Shown here: piece by piece, positions 43,373 to 57,183 of the stretch | How positions within the stretch are numbered: the stretch's first letter is position 1 | Layout: each line of letters starts with the position of its first letter | Assembly: GCF_032341175.1 (NCBI RefSeq) | Contig: NZ_CP135435.1 | Coordinates: forward strand, 2,666,001-2,730,000 | Direction: 5' to 3' | Length of the DNA: 64,000 nt | Source: Bacillus sp. DTU_2020_1000418_1_SI_GHA_SEK_038 | GTDB lineage: Bacteria > Bacillota > Bacilli > Bacillales > Cytobacillaceae | Translations under genes and position numbers: made by a program | Notes under the pieces: generated by a model | The model's input: only the letters and a program-made list of their open reading frames with translations | Database searches by the model: none | What the model was told of the DNA's origin: nothing

Positions 43373-44163
43373 ATACTTACCTCCCCCTTAATATGAGGAT
43401 GGGCCTCATAATTGACTAATTCAAAATCCTCAAACTTAAATGAGAAAATATCCTTTACTTCAGGATTGATTTTCATTTTCGGCAACGCCATTGGCTCACG
43501 GGTAAGCTGGAGTTTCACTTGATCTAAATGATTTAAATAAATATGAGTATCCCCGAAGGTATGAATGAATTCTCCTGGCTCCAAGTCACAAACCTGTGCA
43601 ATCATGAGGGTGAGAAGAGCATAGGAAGCGATATTAAATGGCACCCCTAAGAACACATCGGCTGATCTTTGGTAAAGCTGACAAGATAATTTCCCTTCAG
43701 CAACGTAAAATTGGAACATGCAATGGCACGGAGGAAGTGCCATCTTCTCAATATCTCCAACATTCCATGCATTCACAACCATCCGTCTAGAATCAGGATT
43801 TGTCTTTAGCAGATGGATTAATTCGCTGATCTGATCAATTGTATTTCCGTCTGCTCCTGTCCATGATCTCCATTGATGACCGTAAACAGGGCCTAAATTG
43901 CCTTCCTCATCTGCCCATTCATTCCAGATTCTAACACCGTTATCCTGGAGGTATTTAATATTTGTATCTCCTTGTAAAAACCAGAGCAACTCATAAATAA
44001 TGGATCTTAAGTGCAGTTTTTTTGTTGTTATAACCGGGAACCCCTCCTGAAGATTAAAGCGCATTTGATAGCCAAATGTACTGATTGTGCCTGTTCCTGT
44101 TCTGTCCTCTTTTTTCACGCCATTTTCCAAGACATGCTGACAAAGCTCTAAATACTGTTTCAT
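43369..44163 (-). CDS. thyA: Thymidylate synthase (ThyA type)
   Basis: 264 residues, the E. coli ThyA length. RTGTGT near the start, [17 protein letters not shown], the catalytic Cys in [30 protein letters not shown] and [12 protein letters not shown] are all present. It methylates dUMP to dTMP using methylene-THF. Upstream of and overlapping dfrA. In B. subtilis the equivalent is thyB, next to dfrA. Good ribosome binding site AAAAGGTTGGATGTAA. Confidence 0.96.
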
Positions 44164-44226
44164 TTACATCCAACCTTTTCTATTCATACATGGTTAATAT
44201 TCTATACCAAAACGGCTAACATTTCC

Positions 44227-44931
44227 TTAATTTAAATTTTTAATAAAATGATAGGTTTCCGGTGCTTTATTTTTTAATAGCATATTTGATTCGCTATTCA
44301 GATAAAAATAAGCAAAAGCCTCAGCAAAATACTCCTCAGGAAAGGTTAGAAAATAGTCTTGATTAGGAAATAATTTAGAACTTTCATGCTTCCAAACAGA
44401 AAGAAATTTTTGATTGTAACGGATCCCATTATAAACATATTTATCAATCGAATGGGCAATCTCATGCAGCTCTAAATTAATAGAACCATGCCCTTTTCCT
44501 TTTTCACTAAAACCTATTTTCACTAAAACGGTTTTGGATCCGCCGATTCCTGGAACATCATCCCATGTAGTTTGACTTTTGTATCCTCTCGGAATTATTC
44601 CCGATAAGTACTGTGCTGTAGGATTATCCGTTAATTTTCCAACAAACAGCTTCAGTTTAATATCTTCTCTAGCTATTTTTTCCAATAGGAAATATGGTAA
44701 GCGGTCAATCCTTTCGATGATCTCGGCTGCTTTCAGCTCATCAAATGGATCTATCGGAAGTATGATAATACTTCCTATTAAACTTGGAGATTGGAGATCA
44801 AGGGATTGGTGCAGAAGAGAATTGTAAGGATAATTCTTCAGTTGAATCCCCCCCATTGCAGCTTGTGAACTGCCCATTAATGAAAGGGTTAGAGTCATTA
44901 ATATTGTCAAAGCCATCAATCTTTTCATCAT
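44227..44931 (-). CDS. Secreted ATLF/PPEP-like zinc metalloprotease domain protein
   Basis: 234 residues with a signal peptide (about 1-24, ending SSQAA). The single domain has zinc motif HEIAH (H156-E157...H160) in LELHEIAHSIDK and a downstream FPEEYFAEAFAYFY in which Glu199, Glu200 or Glu204 is the third ligand. This is the anthrax-lethal-factor-like (M34/ATLF) layout shared with Pro-Pro endopeptidases of clostridia. GGGGAG precedes tandem ATGs. Substrate unknown; a housekeeping extracellular protease is likelier than a toxin since no translocation or PA-binding domain is present. Confidence 0.8.
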   Translation of the reverse strand: MMKRLMALTILMTLTLSLMGSSQAAMGGIQLKNYPYNSLLHQSLDLQSPSLIGSIIILPIDPFDELKAAEIIERIDRLPYFLLEKIAREDIKLKLFVGKLTDNPTAQYLSGIIPRGYKSQTTWDDVPGIGGSKTVLVKIGFSEKGKGHGSINLELHEIAHSIDKYVYNGIRYNQKFLSVWKHESSKLFPNQDYFLTFPEEYFAEAFAYFYLNSESNMLLKNKAPETYHFIKNLN

Positions 44932-45082
44932 AGACTCCCCTCCCCCGCAGTTCCAATGAAAAACTTAATAAAGTAAAGAATTATGAAATAATAATTAAAT
45001 TATAACATATGAAAAAATAGCTTTATATAATCGAAGTCTAGCAAAAACTTGGAAACTCTGTTTCAAAGAGGGGCTAAACGTG

Positions 45083-45110
45083 AAAAAGCCCTGACAAATT
45101 TGCCAGAGCT
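45083..45110 (-). terminator. Intrinsic terminator at end of yceG-telA-terD operon
   Basis: AGCTCTGGCAAA / TTTGTCAGGGCT on the minus strand then TTTTTC. Confidence 0.75.
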
Positions 45111-45128
45111 CGACTAATTACTATTGAC

Positions 45129-45740
45129 TTAACTGTAGGAACGAACAACATCTGCTAAGCCTGGTGAAGAAGTGCCAGTCCCAACTGCAGCAAATTTCCA
45201 ATCTGCACCGTGGCGGTAAATTTCGCCTACAACTAAACAAGTTTTTCCGCTGTAATTATCTGTCAAATTGTAATGAATCATTTCTTGGTTGTTTGCAGAA
45301 TTCACAATACGAATAAATGCGTTTTGGATCATTCCAAAATGCTGTTTACGTTTTACACAGTCATAAATATTAACAACGAATACAAGCTTTTGAACTTGTG
45401 CTGGAACACGGCTTAAATCGATTAAGATTTGCTCATCGTCTCCATCACCGTCACCCGTCAAGTTATCACCTGTATGCTGAATACTTCCGTCTTTGCTTTT
45501 TAAATTTCCAAAGTAAATGACGTCACTGTTATTTCTGATTTTATCATTTTCATCTAACATGATTACGGACGCATCACAGTCGATATTAGCTCCACCGCCG
45601 CCTCCGAATAGTGAACCTAATAATCCACCGCCGCCGCGACTCTGTACTGGGTCCCAGCCAAGTCCTACTAAAATTTTTGATAATCCTGGATTTCCTTTTG
45701 TTAAATCAACTCGTTGACCTTTTTGTAAATTAATAGCCAT
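45129..45740 (-). CDS. TerD family stress protein, YceC-like with glycine loop
   Basis: 203 residues, TerD fold: INLQKGQRVDLTKGNPGLSKILVGLGWD, the Ca-binding [21 protein letters not shown] segment ([16 protein letters not shown]), IYDCVKRKQHFG, and GEIYRHGADWKF near the end. Unlike the other copy (54558-55139), a Gly-rich stretch (GGGGLLGSLFGGGGG) interrupts the loop before the IDCDASV strand and the usual FDLD acid pair is IDCD. TerD proteins bind calcium and act at the membrane in tellurite, phage or envelope stress. Last gene of an operon with yceG and telA. Confidence 0.9.
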   Translation of the reverse strand: MAINLQKGQRVDLTKGNPGLSKILVGLGWDPVQSRGGGGLLGSLFGGGGGANIDCDASVIMLDENDKIRNNSDVIYFGNLKSKDGSIQHTGDNLTGDGDGDDEQILIDLSRVPAQVQKLVFVVNIYDCVKRKQHFGMIQNAFIRIVNSANNQEMIHYNLTDNYSGKTCLVVGEIYRHGADWKFAAVGTGTSSPGLADVVRSYS

Positions 45741-45841
45741 ATTTTCACCTCATTAGTTTTTTGATCCTTTAATAGATCTTTACCATTACTTTTTTATTTT
45801 AGCTTTTTCATACTGCACATGTTAAGGGAATTGCTTATCGA

Positions 45842-46954
45842 TTAGCTTCCTTGGTGCTTAATTTTTTTAAAATTATCTTGAAGCTGTTCTAATCTTCTTG
45901 TTCCTTCTTCACGCATACGTTTGTTTTCTTCTTCGATCGCCTTTGTTTCCTGCATTCCTTTAATAATAATATTCCATGATTCCTCTATCGTTTCAATCTT
46001 AATGCTTGGTGCCCCAGCAAGTCTAGCAATATCTGCGCTTTGCGAGGAAATATTTTGGGCATTGCGAAGGAGCATCTCATTTGTTCTTCTATCAAGCTCA
46101 TTCATAGAATCTGCTACTAGCTTTTGCCGTTTAGCAGCGACTGCTTGAATTAAACCGTTTTTAAAGATTGGAATCGTTGTAACAAAAGCAGAGTTAATCT
46201 TCCCGATAAGCTTTGTATTTCCTCTTTGTAATAAACGAATTTGAGGTGCTGTTTGGAGTGACACCATTTTTGCCATCTCCAAGTCGTACACTCTTTGTTC
46301 CATTAAATCAATGGCATTTCTTAATGTATCTAGCTGCATGGAAGCCATTTGATCTCCAGCTGCTGTTCTAGCTTCCAGCTGAGGAAGCTGATTCGCTTTA
46401 AGATCGTCAATCTTCATTTGTCCTGCTACAGCGTATTTTTCCAGTGTTAAGTAGTATTGATAGTTTTGCTCGTACATTTGATCAAGCATTGTAGTAGAGT
46501 CAACCATTTCACCTTGATATTTTGATATTTCTACATATACTTTATCTATTTCTTGGCCCATCGTCTGGTATTTGCCAAAGAGCTTATCAATAAGCTTTTC
46601 GCCCTTTTTGAAGAGCTTTCCAAACAAACCGCCGGATGTCTTTTCAAAGTCTTTCTTATCAAACTTATCCATGATTCTGCCGAGTTGCTTTAATAATTCC
46701 CCAGAATCCTCAACTTTTGTTGATCTCATATTACTTAATATTTGATCGGAGAAGCGTGAAATTTGAGTAGCTGGCTCCTTCCCAAATTCAAGAATTTGGA
46801 TTTGATCTCTCTCATCAATTGAACGCGCTAAATTTTGGACTTCAGGATCATTTCTAAGAGCTAATTTGATTTCCGATGCAGATGCTTCTGTAAGCTTATC
46901 CTCTTGAGTTTTATTTAAAGTAAGGTCTAAATTTGTCTGCTGCATTTGATTCAT
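45842..46954 (-). CDS. yceH: TelA/YceH toxic anion resistance family protein
   Basis: 370 residues, soluble and largely helical with long coiled-coil parts. TelA family features: ISRFSDQILSNMRS, GGLFGKLFKKGEKLIDKLFGKYQTMGQEID, YLTLEKYAVAGQMK, and RGNTKLIGKINSAFVTTIPIFKNGLIQAV (core TTIPIFKNGL). Its ATG begins five bases after the yceG stop with GGGGAG inside yceG. TelA-like proteins confer tellurite or antibiotic tolerance by an unknown mechanism and co-occur with TerD/TerC. Confidence 0.92.
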   Translation of the reverse strand: MNQMQQTNLDLTLNKTQEDKLTEASASEIKLALRNDPEVQNLARSIDERDQIQILEFGKEPATQISRFSDQILSNMRSTKVEDSGELLKQLGRIMDKFDKKDFEKTSGGLFGKLFKKGEKLIDKLFGKYQTMGQEIDKVYVEISKYQGEMVDSTTMLDQMYEQNYQYYLTLEKYAVAGQMKIDDLKANQLPQLEARTAAGDQMASMQLDTLRNAIDLMEQRVYDLEMAKMVSLQTAPQIRLLQRGNTKLIGKINSAFVTTIPIFKNGLIQAVAAKRQKLVADSMNELDRRTNEMLLRNAQNISSQSADIARLAGAPSIKIETIEESWNIIIKGMQETKAIEEENKRMREEGTRRLEQLQDNFKKIKHQGS

Positions 46955-46958
46955 AACC

Positions 46959-48596
46959 TCAGTCTCCCCTTAAATTTTTTAATATTCCTTTTACTTTTTT
47001 TAATATGGAAGGTTCTTTAAATTCCTGTTCAAATACAACATCCTCCAGCCAATGCACATCATATAAACCGTCCTCTATAAAGTTTTCTAGATCATTATGT
47101 CCTGGCGGATTATATAATACAATGTCAATGCCAAATTGATTTAACAGCAATAATAATGCTGCATCTGTCCTTGTCATTGTACCATTTAGTTCATTGTTAT
47201 AGAGAATGAGCTTTGGTACATCCTGTGAATAGTCAAATTTTTGCAGCAGCTGTAAAACACTAGCTGGAATCTGCATGCCTTGTGTAAACAAGTAGGTTTT
47301 CAATTCCTCCATACCTTCGTGATGGATTGGTTTAATATATGGTCGATAACATATATTTCGAATCGCTGTCGCTATACCATTTTGTAATCCGGTTGGCAAG
47401 TGCTGGTATTTCCAGTAGTGGGCCGTCACCATTTTATGAGTATCAAGCAATCCATCATTACCGAGGGCATTGCGATAGTGAAACCGAAAATCATTATTCA
47501 CATTATTTGTAAATGGGAATCTTCTAATTAAAAGACTATGATCGTACTCTGAAATGGATTGTAAGCGGTCCCAATACTCTTTCCGATTTTTGCTTACACC
47601 TTGTACCTTGGCAAAAATGGAGGGAATTTTGACTTGTCCGTTTTTCACTTCAAAGTTTGGTCGTACCATTGCCTTTTCTTTAATTAAGATAAAGAGCTCA
47701 TCATAGGTTGTTTTAAGCGTGACAGATAGAGGCGTGTAGTCCCTGAGCTGCCAAGGCTTATAAAGACCTGATCCTTCATGGTTTAATATGGATTCAATCT
47801 CTCTTGATGCCCGGTAGGCAACGGTAGCTGAGCGTCTGCTCTTTTCAGTTGGAAACCGCTCGGGTTGCTTCCGCTCAGGATAGCTGTGAACAAAGGTTCC
47901 TTCTTGCCCCTCATTCCAGCCGGCTAGCCAATCACTCCCTGATGGCGAGAAAGAAACTAGATCACATCCTAAATTCATTAAATAATAAAGGAAGTATTTA
48001 TGGCTCTTATTTGTTTCCCCGTACCATAAAAATTTCGGCATCGCTTTTTCCAGTTCGATATTATTCCAAATCTGGCCGAGATGGTTAAAAGACCATTTAA
48101 TTACATCGACTAGCACTCTTCTCAATTCTTGACTGTTTAACCCTTCTGGCTCCTCTGTTGAAAACAGCTGCAATACCGAAATCATTGCTTCCCTTGTTTT
48201 CCGGTGAAGAGAAGGGATATTGGATTTTAATAATAGCAGTTCGCCGTCAAGGAATGCCACAAATCGGTTAATAGATAACTTTTGATCCCTGTTAATATTT
48301 AACACCTTTTGGATGGCTTGAAAGTGATGATTATCGATTGATTTATCAAGCGCCTCTTCACTAATTAGAATGAGGTCTGCTTTCTCTGTATGAATTAAAT
48401 CATAAAGACGATTATAATACTCATCTTCATCCAAAGGAACACCTAAAAAGCGGACAACAACCTGTCCAAAATGAATGGTACCATCCTCAATAGAAAATTG
48501 CGGCCTTTCCCTCAGCAGCTTTTTCAAAGTACTAAACCAGTTATCATTTGATACCGGCAATAAATGTGTTTTTATTTGATTATATGAATGATTCAT
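46959..48596 (-). CDS. yceG: YceG family protein with internal duplication
   Basis: 545 residues, soluble, no known fold assigned here. Two ~230-residue halves are visibly related: WFSTLKKLLRERPQFSIEDG...YYNRLYDL near 19-68 matches TYDELFILIKEKAMVRPNFEVKNG...YWDRLQSI near 295-345, and PKFLWYGE...LGCDLVSFSPSGSD matches PKLILYNN...FGIDIVLYNPPGHND. YceG is a constant partner of TelA and TerD in the B. subtilis yceCDEFGHI operon, controlled there by stress sigma factors. Function unknown. AGGGAAGGG lies before ATG. Confidence 0.9.
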   Translation of the reverse strand: MNHSYNQIKTHLLPVSNDNWFSTLKKLLRERPQFSIEDGTIHFGQVVVRFLGVPLDEDEYYNRLYDLIHTEKADLILISEEALDKSIDNHHFQAIQKVLNINRDQKLSINRFVAFLDGELLLLKSNIPSLHRKTREAMISVLQLFSTEEPEGLNSQELRRVLVDVIKWSFNHLGQIWNNIELEKAMPKFLWYGETNKSHKYFLYYLMNLGCDLVSFSPSGSDWLAGWNEGQEGTFVHSYPERKQPERFPTEKSRRSATVAYRASREIESILNHEGSGLYKPWQLRDYTPLSVTLKTTYDELFILIKEKAMVRPNFEVKNGQVKIPSIFAKVQGVSKNRKEYWDRLQSISEYDHSLLIRRFPFTNNVNNDFRFHYRNALGNDGLLDTHKMVTAHYWKYQHLPTGLQNGIATAIRNICYRPYIKPIHHEGMEELKTYLFTQGMQIPASVLQLLQKFDYSQDVPKLILYNNELNGTMTRTDAALLLLLNQFGIDIVLYNPPGHNDLENFIEDGLYDVHWLEDVVFEQEFKEPSILKKVKGILKNLRGD

Positions 48597-48625
48597 TTTA
48601 TTTTCCCTTCCCTTTGCAAGCGAAA

Positions 48626-48674
48626 GATGGTAATGGCATGTATTAATTTATGCATATGTAAAGTTATTACCATC
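48626..48674. promoter_or_regulatory. Inverted repeat in yceG leader
   Basis: GATGGTAAT (48626-48634) and ATTACCATC (48666-48674) form a perfect 9-bp palindrome with nested GCAT/ATGC. On the minus strand it begins at a -10-like TATGAT, so it could be an operator or a 5'-UTR hairpin for yceG-telA-terD. Confidence 0.4.
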
Positions 48675-48819
48675 ATATCACACCTGAAGAAGTTTTCTAA
48701 AACGATTCCATTAATATTGCAAAAAAACTTCCAATGAAATGCTTCTTATTTTCAATCTTTCACCTTCTTTCTTGTCCCAGCATAATGTTAAGTACGTTGA
48801 ATTATAGAAGGTGATTAAA

Positions 48820-49059
48820 ATGAGGTTCCTTTTTAGAAAGGCGAAATACCATTTACAAGAATCAGATTTGCAGTCTGTCGAAGCAATTCTAGGTTCAGGC
48901 TACTTTATATTAGTAGATTTGTTTTTTTGGTCTTTACTGATTACTTTTTTGACGATGTCTTTGCATTTCTCATTTTTATGGGGTTCTATCATTTTTGTTG
49001 CTTCATACCTGTTTGGAGGCGGCCTATTCTTTATTTTAAGAAAGTGGCTTGGGGAATAG
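48820..49059 (+). CDS. Small two-span membrane protein (79 aa)
   Basis: Start set at ATG 48820 after AGAAGGTGA. MRFLFRKAKYHLQESDLQSVE is followed by two hydrophobic helices (FILVDLFFWSLLITFLTM and LWGSIIFVASYLFGGGLFFIL) and RKWLGE. No family recognised. It is the only plus-strand gene inside the Ter island and its stop is one base from the HAD gene stop, without a terminator between, so antisense overlap of transcripts is likely. Confidence 0.6.
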   Translation: MRFLFRKAKYHLQESDLQSVEAILGSGYFILVDLFFWSLLITFLTMSLHFSFLWGSIIFVASYLFGGGLFFILRKWLGE

Positions 49060-49060
49060 C

Positions 49061-49864
49061 CTATAATGGTTTATTTGTTACAGTCTTGAATATTTCAGCT
49101 AGAATTTCTTCCCCTGCCATTACTCCTCTTGTATTAGTTAAAGTATAATGATAGTCTTCATTAAACTCATTGGCCAATTCCCCATGTGATGGAACAAATG
49201 GAAAATCACAATCTTTTAAGAAATCATGATCAAGCAGAGAATCACCAGCCCCGTAAACGGTTGATATTCCCTCACGCTCTTTTATAAACCTAACAGCCTC
49301 TCCTTTGCTAATTGGGTTTGGCATAAAATATAGCTTCCTTCCCTGCAGTGAAACTCTCCAGCCAAATTCAGTCGCTTTTGATTTAACTATCATGATTTCT
49401 TCCTTGCTCAAGTTCACATCAAGAATATAGTATAAGAATAAGCCTTCTGCCCTTTTTATTGTCCCTGGTATTTTTAATTCCCTTAATTCCGCTTCCATTC
49501 CATCGATCGGATTGCATTCAGACCTTAGACGCTCATGAATTAATCCTTGCCATTCGATTAGGGAGTTCCCCTTATAAGTGATATTGGCACCATTTGACGT
49601 TATTGCATATGTTAATGGAATGTAGTTCGAAAATATGAAGATTCGTTTAAATTGCTCCCATGTTCTAGTCGTTACGGGTACAAACAGCATATGGTCTGCA
49701 ATTTGGCAAAGAGCTTCTGCAGACCGTCTTGTCATAAACGCAACTTCCCGATCCGCTTTTTTCTCCACTCCGATTAGATCATTTACTCCTGTTTGTTTAA
49801 AGTCTGCCAGAGCCCGCTCTGAATAGATGAGTGTACGATCTAAATCTGACGCAAACATTTTCAT
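49061..49864 (-). CDS. HAD phosphatase of Ter biosynthetic module
   Basis: 267 residues, class II HAD: nucleophile FASDLDRTL (D7, D9), motif II VPVTTRTWEQ (Thr), the Lys in SKGEAVRFI and motif IV GAGDSLLDHDFL (Asp pair). It resembles sucrose-phosphate-phosphatase/Cof-type hydrolases. ATG overlaps the preceding stop as TAATG. In Ter gene clusters an HAD enzyme of this type accompanies two PRTase-like proteins and a citrate-lyase-like enzyme; it would remove a phosphate from their product. The metabolite is unknown. Confidence 0.87.
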   Translation of the reverse strand: MKMFASDLDRTLIYSERALADFKQTGVNDLIGVEKKADREVAFMTRRSAEALCQIADHMLFVPVTTRTWEQFKRIFIFSNYIPLTYAITSNGANITYKGNSLIEWQGLIHERLRSECNPIDGMEAELRELKIPGTIKRAEGLFLYYILDVNLSKEEIMIVKSKATEFGWRVSLQGRKLYFMPNPISKGEAVRFIKEREGISTVYGAGDSLLDHDFLKDCDFPFVPSHGELANEFNEDYHYTLTNTRGVMAGEEILAEIFKTVTNKPL

Positions 49865-50979
49865 TATTTCTTTCCTACCTTTTTAATAAGTCCACAGCAT
49901 GTATAGCTCATATTTGGATAATGAATAACTTCCACATTTCTTTCTTTAGCGAGCATTAATATATGTCTGACATATGGACTTTCCATGTCCTTCATGAGAA
50001 TTTTCCACGGTACTCTTCTTAATAAAACCCTAGTCGTTTCTCCAACACCTGGCTTAATATAATTCGTATTTTCGATATTATATTCCCCTTTTATTTTTTG
50101 CACATCTTGCATACCTTGAAACGTTGCCTCTTCATGGTACTGGAGCAGGTATGCCGCAGATTTAGCTGCCTCCTCAAAAATAGCAGGAAATTCATTAGTA
50201 ATTACATCTAAATACTCATTGGAAACATCAGATTCGGCTAAATTGTGATAATATTTTGCCCCATGAAAATCATCGGGACCTATAAGTTCTTTATTTAGTA
50301 CAGTGCGGCTTACTAATCCAGAAACCGTTGAGTTTAAACAAGCACTAGGAATTAAGAAATCCTCCCTAGTTCCATAAAGAGTCGTACAATGCCCAGGATC
50401 TGCAAGTACAGCGAGGCTATCATCAAGCACAATACCATATTTCTCTGAAATTTCCTTACAAGCCTTTGTTAATTCAATTGAAATTGCGCCTTTGCCTGTC
50501 CATCCATCAATAAATTGAATTGTTTTTCCCGGGTGTTTCTCTAAAATAAATGAAATTGCATTTTCGTCCAACCCTTTATCACGAATTATTGAGACACTGT
50601 AATGAGGTAAATCCGCATGGTATTTTTCCTTAATATAGCGTTTGATTAAGATTCCGATCGGAGTTCCGGCCCGTGCTAATGAAACTAGAACGGTATTTTC
50701 ACCCTTTAGTCCGTAAATTTGTTCGGCAACAATCCCCGTGCATAAAGCCACTTTTTGCTTATATTCAATCAATGTTTCGCGAAACAATTCCATATAATTA
50801 GCTGGCGGCTGATATTCGATCGGCAAAGTTTCACTATAATGCTGCCCTAACTGAATCTGCTTTTCTCGATTATCAATTGAACCCTCCAACTGAAAATGGC
50901 TTAAATCTTTCAAAAGAAAAATCACGTCATTTTCAGCATATGATCCAAATTTCGTTATATTATTTATTGAACTATTCAT
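49864..50979 (-). CDS. StiP-family PRTase-like protein with PELOTA-type C-terminus
   Basis: Start set at ATG 50979, eight bases after GGAGG. 371 residues. The main domain (about 60-260) has VLVSLARAGTPIGILIKRY, SIIRDKGLD and FIDGWTGKGAISIEL, a phosphoribosyl-pyrophosphate-binding loop pattern. The C-terminal part (TRVLLRRVPWKILMKDMESPYVRHILMLAKERNVEVIHYPNMSYTCCGLIKK) resembles the PELOTA RNA-binding fold, with a CC pair. Databases call this family cysteine protease StiP; the PRTase motif argues for a nucleotide-related enzyme. It overlaps the preceding gene by eight bases. Confidence 0.85.
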   Translation of the reverse strand: MNSSINNITKFGSYAENDVIFLLKDLSHFQLEGSIDNREKQIQLGQHYSETLPIEYQPPANYMELFRETLIEYKQKVALCTGIVAEQIYGLKGENTVLVSLARAGTPIGILIKRYIKEKYHADLPHYSVSIIRDKGLDENAISFILEKHPGKTIQFIDGWTGKGAISIELTKACKEISEKYGIVLDDSLAVLADPGHCTTLYGTREDFLIPSACLNSTVSGLVSRTVLNKELIGPDDFHGAKYYHNLAESDVSNEYLDVITNEFPAIFEEAAKSAAYLLQYHEEATFQGMQDVQKIKGEYNIENTNYIKPGVGETTRVLLRRVPWKILMKDMESPYVRHILMLAKERNVEVIHYPNMSYTCCGLIKKVGKK

Positions 50980-52354
50980 CTCGTAAACCTCCATTAAAGA
51001 ATACTATTTTTATGTCTTTAATGTTTGTCTTTTTCAATTCATTAAGGAATGGCTGCAGTTCTTCCTCCGATACCGCTCTTTCAAAAAATACAAACAGATC
51101 ATCGTATTCATTTGGGGGGATATTATAAACAAATTGGTCGACTTTCCAATCATCTGGATTAGGGAATGATAGACCAAATAAGGCTCCATATGATTCCCGA
51201 TTCTCGACGTAAATAGGGCTTCTAGTAGTAGACTGGTAGCTGACTCCTTTTCCCATATACGATGCGATCTTCATCGGCATATACATAAATTCGCCTGTTC
51301 CAAGGCAAAGAGTCCTTTCCCCTGATCTATATGTCTTTAAGTAATTTCCCACTTCCTCCATCGATTGTTTCCATTCATTATTAGCCGCGGAATTTAATCC
51401 AAATCTGCCAGTTTCTTTTACATAAGGAATACTCTTTGTTGTTCCTTCTAATGAAAGGGATGGATAATGGACAGCGGTTGTATGTTCCGGGAAGACATCA
51501 TGAAGCGTAATCTTTTCTACAGTTTGGACAACGGATGTGACACTTGGTGGTGAAGGTATTGGACTTTCAATATCCGGGGAACCAATTGCCTTCATGAACC
51601 CCTTTAGCAAACTTACTGATTGAATCGTAATATTAAGCTCTTCTTCAAGCTCTTTGTATAAAAGCTGGTCCCCCTCCGAACGCCAATCCAAAATGGACAC
51701 CACTGTATACTTATTTCGTGGAAACTGTTTTTGAATGGAGCGAATAATATTTATCGCCGTCTTTCCCGTTGTCATTTCATCATCAACTAAAATAATCTCA
51801 CGCTGATTATTTAATAGGGATTCATTGACATAACACCGGTGAGAGGTGGCATGGGAATGCTCCTCCTCAAAGGTTATCACTGGTTCTATTCCAACTAGCT
51901 TTTCTCTCGTTGTATGGAAGAAATCTGCCTTATTAAAAAATTGATAAAAGGCATGTCCGAGTGCTGTTGCCGTCTCTGCAAAACCGATAATGACTGGATT
52001 TATTTGTTCATCAACAAAAGGCTGTTCGGTAAAGCTATCAGCACCATTATGAAACAAGGATATTAGCTTTTCCGTTAATCTTGCTCTTTCACTACAAACC
52101 GTCTCTAAATAACGATTTGCCAGCAAAGCACCTGTTAATATTCCCATCCTAGGTTCAATAGGGATATGCTTTCCTAAAACCCTGCTTACAAATAAAAATG
52201 ATCTCTTTTTATTAATTCGTGCAGCCATGGTAAATAATTGGTCGATAGGAAGCCCGTATGGATTTTCTGTAATTTCAATTTCAACTTTTAACTGGTTGAG
52301 GATTGGAAGCGTACATTTCGTTGGTGAGCAAGTCAATGTATGTGTATTCTTCAT
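50972..52354 (-). CDS. Phosphoribosyltransferase-like protein with TRSP domain
   Basis: 460 residues. N-terminal PRTase (about 30-230): PYGLPIDQLFTMAAR, VSRVLGKHIPIEP, GFAETATALGHA and the PRPP loop EIILVDDEMTTGKTAINI. The C-terminal ~170 residues are the TRSP domain: RFGLNSAANNEW, LGTGEFMYMPMKIA, YQSTTRSPIYV and YDDLFVFFE. The ATG (52354; GGGGTG four bases upstream) lies 74 bases inside the citrate-lyase-like gene in another frame, an unusually long overlap. Orthologues occur in Ter clusters of many bacteria and are predicted to make a nucleoside-like compound; not shown biochemically. Confidence 0.87.
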   Translation of the reverse strand: MKNTHTLTCSPTKCTLPILNQLKVEIEITENPYGLPIDQLFTMAARINKKRSFLFVSRVLGKHIPIEPRMGILTGALLANRYLETVCSERARLTEKLISLFHNGADSFTEQPFVDEQINPVIIGFAETATALGHAFYQFFNKADFFHTTREKLVGIEPVITFEEEHSHATSHRCYVNESLLNNQREIILVDDEMTTGKTAINIIRSIQKQFPRNKYTVVSILDWRSEGDQLLYKELEEELNITIQSVSLLKGFMKAIGSPDIESPIPSPPSVTSVVQTVEKITLHDVFPEHTTAVHYPSLSLEGTTKSIPYVKETGRFGLNSAANNEWKQSMEEVGNYLKTYRSGERTLCLGTGEFMYMPMKIASYMGKGVSYQSTTRSPIYVENRESYGALFGLSFPNPDDWKVDQFVYNIPPNEYDDLFVFFERAVSEEELQPFLNELKKTNIKDIKIVFFNGGLRDE

Positions 52355-53492
52355 TTAGCACCCCGTAAACTTCAGATTTTAATAGAATTTTTTGTGCCCA
52401 ATAATAATGAGGCTTGATTTCATTCATTTTATTGGAGAATTCACTTTTCATGACGCCGATTTTTCCATTAGACTTATCAATAATACTTTTGGCATCCAGA
52501 TATTCCTCAAAAGATACCGTATTTAAAGCTTGTACAGGCCTTATATGAGTAGGGTGAATGATCGTCTTTCCGGTTAAACCATTTGTAATATCCATCATTA
52601 TTTCCCTAATCAGCCCGTCCATATGTTTATCAATTAATTCTGACCGGAAATGAATTCCCTCCTGACCAAATCTTTCGCGAAAAGGCGTCTGTCTAAGCTG
52701 CGGTTTTAGCATTCTTTCCTTAGAGGAAAAATACTCCCAAACAGGACCGGAAATAACATATGGATGATCGGAACGTAAGAACATATTAACGATATCAGAG
52801 ATACAATCGCGAATAACCGCAATATCATATACAGTCGTATCCGAATTTCTGCGGATGCCATATAATCCGCAAAAATCTGTTGCCCCGATTCGAATGTTAA
52901 GAATGAGATCTTCATATTGGTCAACTAAATTTTTTATAGCCATTAACTCATCTAGTCGTGTTTCCTTTTCAATGACCTTTTTTGTCTCTAATATGGGAAG
53001 TGCAAAAAGTCTAAAACCCTCATTATTTAGTGTTCTAATTTCCTCTAAAACTAGCGAATCTTTATCAGGAGAAAATTTTGGAATGACAATGCCTGTTAAT
53101 AAGTCGAGACCTTTTTGGATCCGGTTTTTTAGTCGCTTTAGCTGATCATAATTCCTTATGCGAATAAACATTAATGGAAGGTCTTCCTCCATTAAGAGAC
53201 CATTCTCAATATCTTCCTTTAAATTTTTTAGTTCCTGTACGAGCATGAATTCAGCTATCTCAACTTCCTCATCACCAATTGCATCCTCCAGGCATATCAC
53301 CATGGATGTAAGCCCGGAATGTTTTTTTGACAGCAAATCCTGATGAATATTCGGTCGGGTTGCAGGCATATATAGCGTGGCCCCAAGCGCGTAAGATAAG
53401 ATTTCTTTCCCGGAATTTTTCGAGAACTCCTGCGGCTTTTTATAGAAAATTTCATCGCAATTAACATCACTTAGGTTTGAAAATAATCTCAT
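52281..53492 (-). CDS. HpcH/HpaI aldolase (citrate lyase beta-like) of Ter module
   Basis: 403 residues; TIM-barrel of the CitE group: YMPATRPNI, VICLEDAIGDEEV (metal-binding Glu-Asp), IRIRNYDQL (Arg), IVIPKFSPD, LPILETKKV (Glu) and RIGATDFCGLYGIRR (Asp), ending TIIHPTHI. These enzymes cleave or form C-C bonds to CoA or keto acids using Mg2+. GGAGT precedes ATG. It is the first of four overlapping genes transcribed together, located after the terC terminator, so the module must have its own promoter or use read-through. Confidence 0.88.
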   Translation of the reverse strand: MRLFSNLSDVNCDEIFYKKPQEFSKNSGKEILSYALGATLYMPATRPNIHQDLLSKKHSGLTSMVICLEDAIGDEEVEIAEFMLVQELKNLKEDIENGLLMEEDLPLMFIRIRNYDQLKRLKNRIQKGLDLLTGIVIPKFSPDKDSLVLEEIRTLNNEGFRLFALPILETKKVIEKETRLDELMAIKNLVDQYEDLILNIRIGATDFCGLYGIRRNSDTTVYDIAVIRDCISDIVNMFLRSDHPYVISGPVWEYFSSKERMLKPQLRQTPFRERFGQEGIHFRSELIDKHMDGLIREIMMDITNGLTGKTIIHPTHIRPVQALNTVSFEEYLDAKSIIDKSNGKIGVMKSEFSNKMNEIKPHYYWAQKILLKSEVYGVLNEEYTYIDLLTNEMYASNPQPVKS

Positions 53493-53535
53493 CCTGTTTA
53501 CTCCGTTTCCAATAAATTAACAAAAATAAAATAGG

Positions 53536-53572
53536 TAAAAAGAAAGGGAGCGGACAATAGTCAGTTCCCTTT
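53536..53572 (-). terminator. Intrinsic terminator after terC
   Basis: AAAGGGAACTGAC-TATT-GTCCGCTCCCTTT on the minus strand with one mismatch, then TCTTTTT. Confidence 0.8.
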
Positions 53573-53587
53573 AGTATATATAGTAAT

Positions 53588-54361
53588 TTATTTTTCTCCA
53601 GCTGCTGCTTCTTTCTTCTTATTCATAAAATGAACAACGAAAGTAGCCGCAAATGTAATAAGTAAAATAATAAAGAAATAAATATGATCAATGTGAATGC
53701 CAGCAACACCCAATAGCATTTTCACAGAGATAATCAATATAAGAACATAAGCTGATGTTTCCAATTCTGGCACTCGATCAATAAGCTTTAGGAATACTCC
53801 TGCGATCCCACGCATCATTAAAACACCAAGCATTCCACCTAATAATAAAACCCAGATTTCCTGGCTGACTCCGAAGGCTGCTAATACACTGTCAACGGAG
53901 AAAGCAATATCCATTAATTCGACAGCAATTACAGTACCCCAGAATGTACCGAAGAGACGAATTAATAAACCGCTCTGGTTCATTCCTTCAATTTCATCTT
54001 CCTCTGACTCAGCTTCTTTCTTTTTATCTATAAAGTATTTAATGGCCAACCAAGCAAGATATCCGGCACCTAATATTTTTACCCACCATAGCTTGATGAG
54101 GAAAACTCCGATTCCAATTGCGATAAAGCGAAAAATATAAGCCCCAAGTAATCCGTAAAAAAGTGCTTTCTTACGTTGCTTTTCTGGTAAATGCTTTACC
54201 ATTACAGCAAGTACTAGTGCATTATCTGCAGATAAAAGCCCTTCTAAAATAACAAGTGTTCCAATTAATCCCCAGCTTACTGGATTTGATAAAACTTCAA
54301 CCCACATTTCCCAATTGAAAAACTGGGAATAGGTGTGTAGAATACCTTCTAATATCGTCAT
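53588..54361 (-). CDS. yceF: TerC family integral membrane protein
   Basis: 257 residues with about eight membrane helices. TerC core motifs: LEGLLSADNALVLAVMVKHLP (conserved Asp-Asn), VELMDIAFSVDSVLAAFGVS (Asp pair) and LLGGMLGVLMMRGIAG. TerC members export or handle metal ions such as Mn2+ during secretion; the B. subtilis relatives YceF and YkoY/MeeF act in Mn2+ metalation of exoenzymes. In Ter clusters TerC and TerD form a membrane complex. It follows terD by 196 bases that hold a dispersed repeat. Confidence 0.92.
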   Translation of the reverse strand: MTILEGILHTYSQFFNWEMWVEVLSNPVSWGLIGTLVILEGLLSADNALVLAVMVKHLPEKQRKKALFYGLLGAYIFRFIAIGIGVFLIKLWWVKILGAGYLAWLAIKYFIDKKKEAESEEDEIEGMNQSGLLIRLFGTFWGTVIAVELMDIAFSVDSVLAAFGVSQEIWVLLLGGMLGVLMMRGIAGVFLKLIDRVPELETSAYVLILIISVKMLLGVAGIHIDHIYFFIILLITFAATFVVHFMNKKKEAAAGEK

Positions 54362-54517
54362 TCTTGATTGTTCCTCCTGAAAATGTCTAGTTTTTATGTG
54401 TAGGATTATACATATTTTATCTTATTAAAGGATATGCAGTATACAGCCTTTTAACAAAAGGAATGAACTACCAGCATATCCATTGGTAAATATTTCAATG
54501 GAGTTTTTATTTTTCAA

Positions 54518-54552
54518 TGTCTAGCTATAGCGCCTAGGGGTTCGAGGTTCCG
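54518..54552. repeat. Dispersed Bacillaceae intergenic repeat fragment
   Basis: The run TGTCTAGCTATAGCGCCTAG followed by GGGTTCGAGGTTCCG resembles an intergenic repeat (TGTCTAGCTnnAGCGCCTAG core) that I recall from many Bacillaceae genomes. Only one copy is in this window. Confidence 0.5.
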
Positions 54553-54557
54553 CTTTT

Positions 54558-55139
54558 CTAGCCAACCTGTAAGCCGAAATCTTTTGCTAATGCAGCAAGA
54601 CCGCCTTGATAGCCGCTTCCAATTGCATTGAATTTCCACTCGCCATTATGTCTGTATAGTTCACCTACAACAAGGGCAGTTTCAATTGAGAAGTCTTCTC
54701 CTAAATCATAGCGGATAAGCTCCTCACCTGAATCTTCGCTTATTATCCGAGCATAGGCGTTGGAAACTTGCCCAAAGTTTTGATTGCGTGCTTCCCCATC
54801 ATGGATAGTAATGGTGAATGTGATGCGCTGAACATTAGCCGGCACACTGGCTAAATTAATTTTTACCTGCTCATCGTCTCCATCGCCATCACCTGTACGG
54901 TTATCACCTGTATGTACAACAGAACCATTTCCGCCAGTCGTATTGTTATAAAAAATAAAATCACTATCAGATGCTACTTTTCCATTATCCCCAAGCAGGA
55001 AAACTGAAGTGTCCAGGTCAAAGTCATTGCCGCCGTCATATTTATTTACATCCCATCCTAAGCCTACAACTACCTTTGATAGTCCAGGATTTGTTTTTGT
55101 TAAATCTACTTTTTGCCCTTTTGATAAACTTACTGCCAT
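54558..55139 (-). CDS. yceE: TerD family stress protein
   Basis: 193 residues, canonical Ter[62 protein letters not shown] (two Ca-binding loops), [10 protein letters not shown] and [25 protein letters not shown]. It matches the B. subtilis YceD/YceE pair; which one cannot be told. GGAGGTATTAAAATT precedes ATG. An ECF-sigma promoter lies 38-63 bases upstream and should drive terD and terC as an envelope-stress unit. Confidence 0.92.
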
Positions 55140-55176
55140 AATTTTAATACCTCCGATAAATAGAATATGTTTTATT

Positions 55177-55202
55177 TACGTTGCTTTTGCAAAAAGGTTT
55201 CA
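55177..55202 (-). promoter_or_regulatory. ECF-sigma (sigma-W/M-type) promoter of terD
   Basis: Minus strand TGAAAC, 16-base spacer, CGTA. Matches the extracytoplasmic stress consensus; the B. subtilis yce operon is under comparable control. Confidence 0.7.
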
Positions 55203-55228
55203 ATTAACTATAAAGTTTTTGTGTTTTT

Positions 55229-55834
55229 TCAACTCATCCATTTTGGCGGGGTATTTTTATCCCAATAAATACTCCCGAGCTCATGATGTGCTTGAAATTG
55301 GTCATGATGTGTGTGGTAATGAAAGTTAAACCAGTAGCCTTGTTGGGGTGGCTGATCTCTTCTAACATGAAAACGGATAACATCTTCGTTAGTTTTATCA
55401 TTAGTAATATTAAAAATCTTTTCTGAGTGGCCTTTACCTGGCCTTTCAGTTACTGTTAAATAGGCTAACTCTTCTTCAGGATACTGTTCTGCAACGTTTT
55501 GAATAGCCTTTTCAATATTAGGTAATATTACTTCAGTAAATTCATTTTCGATGACTGGTTTAATCCGTGCCCCGAACTTCGTAAAGGATTGAGCTTCAGC
55601 TTCCATAAGCATCTGCCTAATAAAATCCTCTTTACTAATATACCCAACATGCTCATCAGCCAATGCCGGATTATTTATTACATTTTTATTTTCTGATAAG
55701 GCATCAAAAATATCCTTTTTTGGCGTTTTTACTGCATTGGAATGTTCATAAAGAAAAGCTTGTGATGGTGTAACCAAACCAAATGTTAAAATGGTTACCA
55801 TGACAACGAGTGATTTACGAAGCCAATTAGGCAT
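55229..55834 (-). CDS. ypjP: YpjP family exported protein
   Basis: 201 residues with an N-terminal signal/anchor (LRKSLVVMVTILTFGLVTPSQAF). The extracellular domain ends in the signature QQGYWFNFHYHTHHDQFQAHHELGSIYWDKNTPPKWM (core NFHYHTHHDQF), rich in His. In B. subtilis ypjP lies beside thyB-dfrA, whereas here the ~10 kb Ter island lies between them, pointing to an insertion. Function unknown; the His cluster may bind metal. Confidence 0.88.
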   Translation of the reverse strand: MPNWLRKSLVVMVTILTFGLVTPSQAFLYEHSNAVKTPKKDIFDALSENKNVINNPALADEHVGYISKEDFIRQMLMEAEAQSFTKFGARIKPVIENEFTEVILPNIEKAIQNVAEQYPEEELAYLTVTERPGKGHSEKIFNITNDKTNEDVIRFHVRRDQPPQQGYWFNFHYHTHHDQFQAHHELGSIYWDKNTPPKWMS

Positions 55835-55856
55835 AGATTAAACCCTCCAACCGTTA

Positions 55857-57035
55857 CTAATTCGTTACTGCTTCTAATATCCCTGACTGCTTAATATTGC
55901 TTACTGCTCTCTTTAACATATCTTCTGATTGTACGAGTGCAATTCGCACATAGCCCTCTCCCCAAGACCCAAATGCGTTTCCAGGAGTCACAACGACATT
56001 TGCACGATTGATTAATTCAATAGCAAAGTCCTTAGATGTAAAGGATGAAGGAACTTCTGCCCAGACAAACATGGATGCTTTAGGCTCACTTACATTCCAG
56101 CCAATTTCACGTAAGCCGTTCACAAGAACATCTCTTCTATTCTTATAGATCGCACGAAGATCACTTAAGAACTGAGATTCATCCCTTAATGCCTTTGCAG
56201 CCGCAGCTTGGATCGGAAAAAATACACCGTAATCCACATTGGATTTAAAATTAGCAAGCATAGAAATAATTTCTCGATTTCCAGCTGCATAGGCAATTCT
56301 GCAGCCAGCCATATTAAAGCTTTTTGATAATGAATTCATCTCAATGCCGACTTCCATTGCCCCGTCAACTGATAAAAAGCTGATTGGCTGCTCTTCATAA
56401 TAAAGCTCAGAATAGGCAAAATCATGCAAAATAACGATATTGTATTTTTTTGCATAGGCAATGGCCTCTTCAAAGAAAGCTTGCGTCCCCATTGCCGGAA
56501 CAGGGTTTCCTGGAAAATTCAAGATCATTAATTTTGCTTTTTCACTGATCTCCTCTGGAATTTCAGAAAAATCAGGAAGAAATTGATTTTCCTTTTTTAA
56601 TGGCATCGGATATAATTTTGCTCCTGCCATACTCACCCCAGTTTCATATGCAGTGTAACCTGGGTCGGGTACGAGTACATAGTCTCCTGGATTACAAAGC
56701 ACCATTGGAAAATGGACTAAGCCGTCTTGAGACCCCATTAAAAGCGAAACCTCTAGATTAGGATCAAGCGATACACGAAAGCGTCGGTCATAATAAGTAC
56801 ACACTGCTTTGTGAAAATCATCTGTCCCTTTCATCGAATAACCATATAAATTTGGGTTCTTCGCTAACTCAGCAATCGTTTCCGTCACAATTGCAGGTGG
56901 CGGTGTATCCGGACTTCCCACACTTAAATCAACCATTTCCTGTCCTTCGGAAAGCTTTAATTTCTTATAATAAGCTAATTCAGAAAAGATACTTTCCTGA
57001 AAAGAATTCATTCTCTCTGCCATTGTTATTTTCAT
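55857..57035 (-). CDS. Class I/II PLP-dependent aminotransferase (LL-DAP aminotransferase-like)
   Basis: 392 residues, fold-type I: VDLSVGSPDTPPP, YGYSMKGTDDFHKAV, DPGYTAYETGVSMAGA, LNFPGNPVPAMG, LHDFAYSELYY, the PLP lysine in NSLSKSFNMAGCRIAY and the terminal R-x-A-L. It clusters by motif with LL-diaminopimelate or methionine/aromatic aminotransferases. LNFPGNPVP, where most relatives have NYPxNPT, is notable. Substrate not determinable. The ribosome binding site is GGGAACGAAG. It is followed by ypjP after 22 bases. Confidence 0.88.
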   Translation of the reverse strand: MKITMAERMNSFQESIFSELAYYKKLKLSEGQEMVDLSVGSPDTPPPAIVTETIAELAKNPNLYGYSMKGTDDFHKAVCTYYDRRFRVSLDPNLEVSLLMGSQDGLVHFPMVLCNPGDYVLVPDPGYTAYETGVSMAGAKLYPMPLKKENQFLPDFSEIPEEISEKAKLMILNFPGNPVPAMGTQAFFEEAIAYAKKYNIVILHDFAYSELYYEEQPISFLSVDGAMEVGIEMNSLSKSFNMAGCRIAYAAGNREIISMLANFKSNVDYGVFFPIQAAAAKALRDESQFLSDLRAIYKNRRDVLVNGLREIGWNVSEPKASMFVWAEVPSSFTSKDFAIELINRANVVVTPGNAFGSWGEGYVRIALVQSEDMLKRAVSNIKQSGILEAVTN

Positions 57036-57183
57036 CTTCGTTCCCTCTCTATTTATACGGTATCAATGCTATTATTCTATTATACTTTCTTTTACGATGA
57101 AAAGGAAAAAATGGTTTCACTTTTTTATTTTTTTTTGATAGTTGGATTGAATTATTTCTAAATAAACTAGAATTCCGAGAGAT

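Follow-up and report, generated by a model that had tools for sequence, protein, structure and literature searches.

A Ter island of Bacillus with a minimal four-enzyme core and a candidate phosphoribosyl-dependent pathway

By comparative genomics, Anantharaman, Iyer and Aravind reportedly predicted in 2012 that Ter genes are associated with a biosynthetic module, for which a nucleoside-like metabolite was proposed, and the phosphoribosyltransferase (PRTase) assignment of StiP as well as the Ter ATP-grasp protein are said to come from the same paper. The present study deals with a nine-gene Ter island of Bacillus sp. DTU_2020_1000418_1_SI_GHA_SEK_038, which lies on the minus strand, from position 55139 down to 45129 of the window, i.e., the whole analyzed stretch of 64,000 nucleotides (contig NZ_CP135435.1, positions 2,666,001 to 2,730,000). 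The island is an instance of the published Ter-linked biosynthetic module, and its gene set is not new. The module prediction is cited in the accessible text of PMC8115787 and PMC7824862. That no product had been established, as the original prediction for this DNA had claimed, agrees with the accessible open-licence literature, where none was found for the Ter-linked module. As far as this literature shows, the product of the enzymes has been a standing question since 2012, and StiP relatives are found on plasmids and in many Bacillota. Our additions are a reassignment of StiP with a mechanistic precedent, natural gene fusions, a conserved sigma-W-type promoter, and a minimal core, some of which the 2012 paper may already hold.

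The island shares with the described module (PF15617, PF15609, PF12500, PF11202, PF15608) the four proteins, their motifs, and the linkage to TerD, TerC, and TelA, and the suggested search against Ter-cluster families matched the lyase, PRTase_2-TRSP, and StiP-PELOTA to these Pfam families. It differs from the ATP-grasp-bearing subtype: the host genome (4.47 Mb, one contig) lacks a true Ter ATP-grasp protein (PF15632; best E value 2.8e-7), and the locus therefore represents a minimal core. On the IncHI2 plasmid pCE2050_B, genes for PRTase-TRSP, HAD, StiP, and lyase likewise stand beside ter genes, but there the ATP-grasp gene comes first, followed by PRTase, HAD, StiP, and lyase, ter genes, among them terD, terC, and terZ, are on the opposite strand, and StiP is 33% identical. 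The B. subtilis yceCDEFGH genes, which we take to encode TerD, TerC (YceF), YceG, and TelA as in the island, differ in that TerD and YceG were matched in the B. subtilis control genome but StiP and TRSP were not, i.e., Ter genes occur without the four-gene module. Acinetobacter phage vB_AbaM_ME3 (L112:6181-10071) carries genes for vWA, PRTase, HAD, and StiP proteins and for a "chemical-damaging agent resistance protein C", which is presumably TerD-like, but no lyase is annotated in the stretch examined. The Ter cluster of ME3 has already been described (PMC7824862), and terZ-F of Klebsiella suffices for tellurite resistance in E. coli MG1655, the role of the biosynthetic part being left open (PMC8115787).

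A mechanistic precedent comes from CriT-CrpP of the Haemophilus influenzae type b capsule polymerase Bcs3 and from glycan PRT/PRP pairs, in which a transferase with a PRTase fold is likewise coupled to a HAD phosphatase. CriT transfers ribose-5-phosphate to a hydroxyl group, with the HAD phosphatase CrpP as its partner (PMC10299916). In contrast to the island, this system acts on a growing glycan, uses a split acidic pair (D680/E818), has a mostly helical HAD cap, and is part of one polymerase chain, and no lyase is described in the accessible text (PMC10299916). In StiP, one acidic residue that could belong to such a split pair, D163, was seen. With a minimal core without ATP-grasp, a single sigma-W-type promoter, the CriT/CrpP precedent, and the evidence against the widely used protease annotation, the formerly vague prediction becomes testable.

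We propose that the four-gene unit encodes a likely sigma-W-induced pathway dependent on 5-phosphoribosyl 1-pyrophosphate (PRPP), which would ribosylate an acceptor and then remove the 5'-phosphate; our confidence in this reading is evenly balanced. The enzymes and their functional loops are located as follows.

52281..53492, minus strand: C-C bond lyase, HpcH/HpaI-CitE-like TIM barrel (PF15617, 406 bits)
50972..52354, minus strand: PRTase_2-TRSP protein, 460 residues (PRTase_2 229 bits, TRSP 140 bits)
51755..51793, minus strand: PRPP loop of PRTase_2, residues 188-200, including DDEMTTGKT (alignment)
51035..51415, minus strand: TRSP domain, residues 314-440 (PF12500, 140 bits)
49864..50994, minus strand: StiP-PELOTA, 376 residues, predicted PRTase fold with C-terminal PELOTA domain (PF11202, 352 bits; PF15608, 121 bits; AlphaFold)
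50647..50688, minus strand: pyrophosphate-type loop of StiP, residues 103-116 (alignments)
50482..50517, minus strand: PRPP-type loop of StiP, residues 160-171, including FIDGWTGKGAI (alignments)
49879..50118, minus strand: PELOTA_1 domain of StiP, residues 293-372 (Pfam, alignment)
49061..49864, minus strand: HAD-IIB-like phosphatase, 267 residues (S6PP, 23.8 bits, cut-off 20.3; profile search)

Counted from the first start codons, the genes overlap by 74 nt (lyase/PRTase), 23 nt (PRTase/StiP), and 1 nt (StiP/HAD), as expected from the claim of four overlapping genes, and the set is complete with conserved catalytic motifs. For comparison, 90 StiP loci were collected; the collection draws on the 80 top-ranking of at least 575, and these 80 belong to Bacillota. 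Lyase and PRTase are encoded by two distinct open reading frames (ORFs) in 79 loci, and in 74 of these the two overlap, so that translational coupling is likely.

The structure prediction that had been suggested as a check supports the assignment of StiP in spite of its protease name, since the AlphaFold (AF2) model, with a predicted local distance difference test score of 90.8, has a PRTase fold according to Foldseek and VIA. The best VIA match is CriT, whose lead over other PRTases is modest, and the match spans the catalytic domain plus flanking helices. In the VIA rows, the matched part is mostly residues 61-353 for the StiP model and residues 30-258 for that of PRTase-TRSP, and the folds of PELOTA and TRSP were thus barely probed by structure. 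The AlphaFold alignments comprised 51 (StiP) and 49 rows, selected from 78-84 full-length rows per family from the loci plus two database hits each. Foldseek matches of StiP to serine hydroxymethyltransferase (E value of about 1e-3, low probability, template modeling score of about 0.2 or less) were taken as chance. In a broad alignment of nine homologues, R108-A109-G110, presumably part of a pyrophosphate-type loop as in other PRTases, and D163-G164-W165-x-G167-x-G169 are invariant; in all nine rows the PRPP-type loop has a lone acid, D163, followed by glycine, in place of a vicinal acidic pair.

Such a pair is present in the PRTase_2 protein, where D192, E193, T196, G197, and T199 of the loop are invariant in eight of eight rows including plasmid and phage homologues, as are E127, T149-R150, E164, H166, and H168; together with the modeled PRTase fold, the loop identifies the protein as a type I phosphoribosyltransferase. 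The two PRTases appear unrelated at the sequence level (profile comparison, probability 1.1%). Searches of PDB sequences with either protein, as single sequences and as profiles, found no significant relative, NCBIfam has no model for either PRTase, and PADLOC (weak PRTase and Csn2-like matches) and BFVD (weak PRTase matches) added nothing more. Gene fusion is classical evidence for joint function, and the natural fusion of PRTase_2-TRSP with StiP-PELOTA into one protein of 804-839 residues in 5 of the 90 loci (L071, L079, L094, L099, L100) therefore argues that the two PRTases work together. The Pfam domains were confirmed in two of the five proteins; four of the loci stem from metagenome assemblies and one from a named strain, Paenibacillus alkaliterrae. 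On a StiP tree of 89 rows, all with at least 100 bits, at least 250 residues, and no masked letters, the fusion requires four changes, three of them forced by well-supported branches, i.e., at least three gains or losses. The rows closest to the StiP of the window are those of Bacillus sp. J33 and Cytobacillus.

For the lyase and the HAD protein, motifs were examined in 47 and 44 rows, respectively, chosen from the 78-84 full-length rows per family. E69, D70, R111, E169, D206, and H313 of the lyase are invariant in all 47, and the family profile together with these acidic and arginine active-site residues places the protein among the CitE/HpcH-HpaI enzymes. A single lyase sequence found no relative in the PDB sequence search, whereas the profile came closest to CLYBL (5vxc; whole-sequence E value of 3.9e-6, from two weak stretches), followed by other citrate-lyase-like proteins; the NCBIfam match to RipC reached only 22.7 bits (cut-off 375). 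A lone strong lyase (382 bits) without StiP was found in genome G095 (L027:1181-16598), within a polysaccharide-type cluster with MmgE/PrpD, fumarase-type, thiamine pyrophosphate-enzyme, aldo-keto reductase, ATP-grasp, and DegT genes. This cluster may form a separate pathway and offers a hint at the lyase substrate, in the direction of citrate- or methylcitrate-like hydroxy acids.

All four HAD motifs are present in the phosphatase, with D7, D9, T65, K187, D208, and D212 invariant in 44 of 44 rows. Its profile came closest to trehalose phosphatase (6d3v, E value of 3.9e-16) and sucrose phosphatase (1s2o, E value of 7.1e-6), and the HAD-IIB profile score was below the cut-off (25.1 versus 41.8 bits); the Pfam scores of all other island genes are far above theirs. 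Trehalose and sucrose phosphatases have as their substrates phosphorylated sugars that are already linked to a second unit, and this kinship would suit a riboside 5-phosphate as the substrate here. The catalytic roles of the conserved residues in all four enzymes are assumed from family knowledge. Degenerate PRPP-loop or aldolase active-site residues had been named as an argument against a functional module; the motifs are conserved in the alignments of all four enzymes, and degeneration was rejected.

In the proposed pathway, the lyase would act in the direction of synthesis and supply a citrate- or citramalate-like hydroxy-acid acceptor, and the two phosphoribosyltransferases would attach ribose-5-phosphate from PRPP. 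By analogy with CriT, StiP may move the phosphoribose onto a hydroxyl group, and the HAD protein would remove the 5'-phosphate, by analogy with CrpP and the nearest glycoside-phosphate families, to yield a riboside that could serve the TerD/TerC/TelA part as a ligand or protectant. The O rather than N linkage and the identity of the acceptor are the least certain elements of this ribosylation pathway. A fully specified product, i.e., an O-linked ribofuranoside of a citrate- or citramalate-like hydroxy acid that is made by a StiP resembling the capsule ribosyltransferases, trimmed by HAD, induced via sigma-W, and read by TerD/TerC, is offered tentatively and is in our opinion unlikely to be correct as a whole. 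If true, the large "cysteine protease StiP" family would consist of small-molecule O-ribosyltransferases, and the product would represent a new class of stress metabolites.

The main rival is an N-linked, nucleoside-like metabolite, whose formation would require the PRTases to ribosylate a heterocyclic base and the HAD protein to free the nucleoside. The original prediction had named such a product, and it stands as one option; the pairing of StiP and HAD is also reminiscent of a PRPP-dependent O-ribosylation with subsequent dephosphorylation. We regard an N-nucleoside as a serious but rather doubtful possibility: the unit contains no base-making enzyme, the lyase family presumably makes or breaks hydroxy acids, and StiP has a noncanonical loop and matches an O-ribosyltransferase best in VIA. 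Alternatively, StiP-PELOTA might act on RNA, with PELOTA binding the target, the PRTase adding phosphoribose, and HAD trimming the phosphate, so that tRNA or rRNA would carry a stress mark. The PELOTA_1 residues K314, E319, R322, and R327 are invariant in nine of nine rows including plasmid and phage proteins, and StiP has weak sequence matches to the ribosomal protein eL8, but the latter are not significant (E value of 0.27), and the lyase as well as, in some lineages, an ATP-grasp ligase speak for a small molecule, which makes an RNA mark improbable.

Less probable still is the reverse direction, in which the unit would detoxify or salvage a foreign or damaged ribosylated compound by phosphorolysis or lyase cleavage instead of making a signal. 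PRTases and CitE-like lyases are presumably reversible, and carriage by plasmids (StiP relatives on 2567 of 72,556 plasmid records) and by a jumbo phage would suit a resistance role, but dephosphorylation by HAD resembles a late synthetic step and the unit is co-inherited with TerD. A faecal phage scaffold (L113:6092-8147) also harbors PRTase and StiP relatives (StiP 48.5% identical), both included in the broad alignments; its origin is unverified and it may be a bacterial contig. The idea of a regulated proteolysis system with StiP as cysteine protease, which draws on the label "cysteine protease StiP family protein" of Pfam PF11202 and NCBI and on the invariance of C219 and C366 in the 51-row Bacillota alignment, deserves hardly any credence, because the modeled fold is that of a PRTase and the broad nine-row alignment, in which the two loop motifs are invariant, contains no invariant cysteine, C219 being absent in three rows (E. 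coli plasmid, phage ME3, and genome G189). For the same reasons, the modeled fold and the lack of an invariant cysteine in the broad homologues, the public name appears to be wrong.

Linkage and co-occurrence with TerD led us to reject a chance neighborhood. Among 150 genomes drawn evenly from the same order, StiP was present in 26, TRSP and a strong lyase (at least 287 bits; next match 82 bits) were found in the identical 26, and TerD was detected in 30, namely all 26 StiP genomes and 4 others. In a phylum sample of 199 genomes, StiP and over-cut-off PRTase_2 matches occurred in the same 10, TerD in those 10 and 1 more, and the strong lyase in 9 of the 10 and in G095. The association of StiP with TerD is reflected by hypergeometric P values of 3e-25 (order) and 5e-16 (phylum), uncorrected for relatedness. 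Within these samples the module was never seen without TerD; TerD without the module occurred in the 4 mentioned genomes of the order and in B. subtilis, one of 14 control genomes. The 90 StiP loci contain TerD in 87 cases, lyase in 84, PRTase-TRSP as its own gene in 83, TerC in 63, YceG in 49, and TelA in 47; HAD was found in 89 by BLAST and in the 90th (G189) by Pfam, and loci L067 and L103 have no PRTase-TRSP match. The expected co-occurrence of the four genes with terD is thus nearly perfect.

Of the 26 genomes of the order with the module, 7 also encode a Ter ATP-grasp protein (PF15632, at least 154 bits); its gene lies near Ter genes on the contig of StiP in 6 cases, at a distance of about 4-6 kb from StiP, and on another contig in G321. 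That family matches turned up in 149 of the 150 genomes was put down to cross-reaction with general ATP-grasp proteins; only the seven matches of at least 154 bits, all in module genomes, were counted, and a 132-bit match in G213, which lacks StiP, was omitted.

The unit is preceded by a candidate promoter and two Ter genes.

55177..55202, minus strand: sigma-W-type (extracytoplasmic function) promoter motif TGAAAC-N16-CGTA, which begins 63 nt upstream of the start of terD1 (motif scan)
54558..55139, minus strand: terD1, first operon gene, TerD domain, 193 residues (PF02342, 287 bits)
53588..54361, minus strand: terC, integral membrane protein of the YkoY subfamily (PF03741, 183 bits; TIGR03716, 263.7 bits, cut-off 138.5)

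The YkoY subfamily of TerC presumably includes YceF/MeeF. For the first terD, the pattern TGAAAC-N15-17-CGT[AC] was searched within 300 nt upstream in those 79 of the 90 StiP loci in which the lyase gene is preceded by a terD in the same direction. It is present in 41 of these loci, which are related and thus not independent observations, versus 3 of 3950 mononucleotide shuffles; 15 of the 41 matches begin more than 100 nt before terD. Upstream of the inner genes the motif is nearly absent (terC 0/63, lyase 0/85, PRTase-TRSP 0/83, StiP 0/90, telA 0/47, HAD 2/89). From this pattern we infer that terD1, terC, and the four-gene unit are transcribed from the one sigma-W-type promoter of terD1, and induction of the pathway by envelope stress via sigma-W is likely. 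For the B. subtilis yceC-H operon, the accessible text of PMC3498285 lists control by sigma-W, sigma-B, and sigma-M. No such motif precedes the other terD pair of the host genome. The window holds two more motifs of this type, at 57119 and 20265 on the minus strand, the first of which begins 84 nt before an ORF (55857-57035) that we take to encode an aminotransferase-like protein. A search of the window with Rfam at gathering thresholds gave 0 matches, and therefore no yybP-ykoY-type riboswitch was seen before terC.

The distal part of the island follows the HAD gene after a gap of about 460 nt.

46959..48596, minus strand: yceG, two YceG stretches, probable start of a second unit (PF14266, 372 bits)
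45842..46954, minus strand: telA, toxic anion resistance family (PF05816, 367 bits)
45129..45740, minus strand: terD2 (PF02342, 265 bits)
45083..45111, minus strand: terminator-like hairpin with T-run 3' of terD2 (fold of 44990-45130, z score of -3.78)

Gene content, positions, and order (terD1, terC, lyase, PRTase_2-TRSP, StiP-PELOTA, HAD, yceG, telA, terD2) were confirmed by the ORF list and Pfam. The assumption of two divergable transcription units with separate terminators held in part. The gap, together with the motifs of the sigma-W type that precede yceG in 16 of 48 loci, makes it plausible that a second unit begins at this gene, and the hairpin 3' of terD2 is convincing as a terminator; the yceG gene of the window has no such motif upstream. 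All nine genes are, however, co-directional, and no terminator hairpin follows the HAD gene (fold z score of 0.41). A terminator scan of 44000-57000 gave 9 hits versus a shuffle mean of 9.4 and overlooked the terD2 hairpin.

Between the HAD gene and yceG, a hydrophobic ORF of 82 residues without a Pfam family (48811-49059, plus strand) is the only opposite-strand gene candidate noted within the island; a similar ORF lies downstream of HAD, likewise on the opposite strand, in 18 other loci, and the ORF cluster spans 21 loci. One flank of the island is formed by ypjP (Pfam YpjP), and the ORFs on the other flank presumably encode thymidylate synthase, dihydrofolate reductase, and threonine dehydratase. 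Outside the window, the host genome harbors five more TerD genes (L028-L031), i.e., a tandem pair, a TerD-TerB fusion (498 residues), a TerF-like TerD-vWA protein (474 residues), and a TerD-domain protein of 418 residues.

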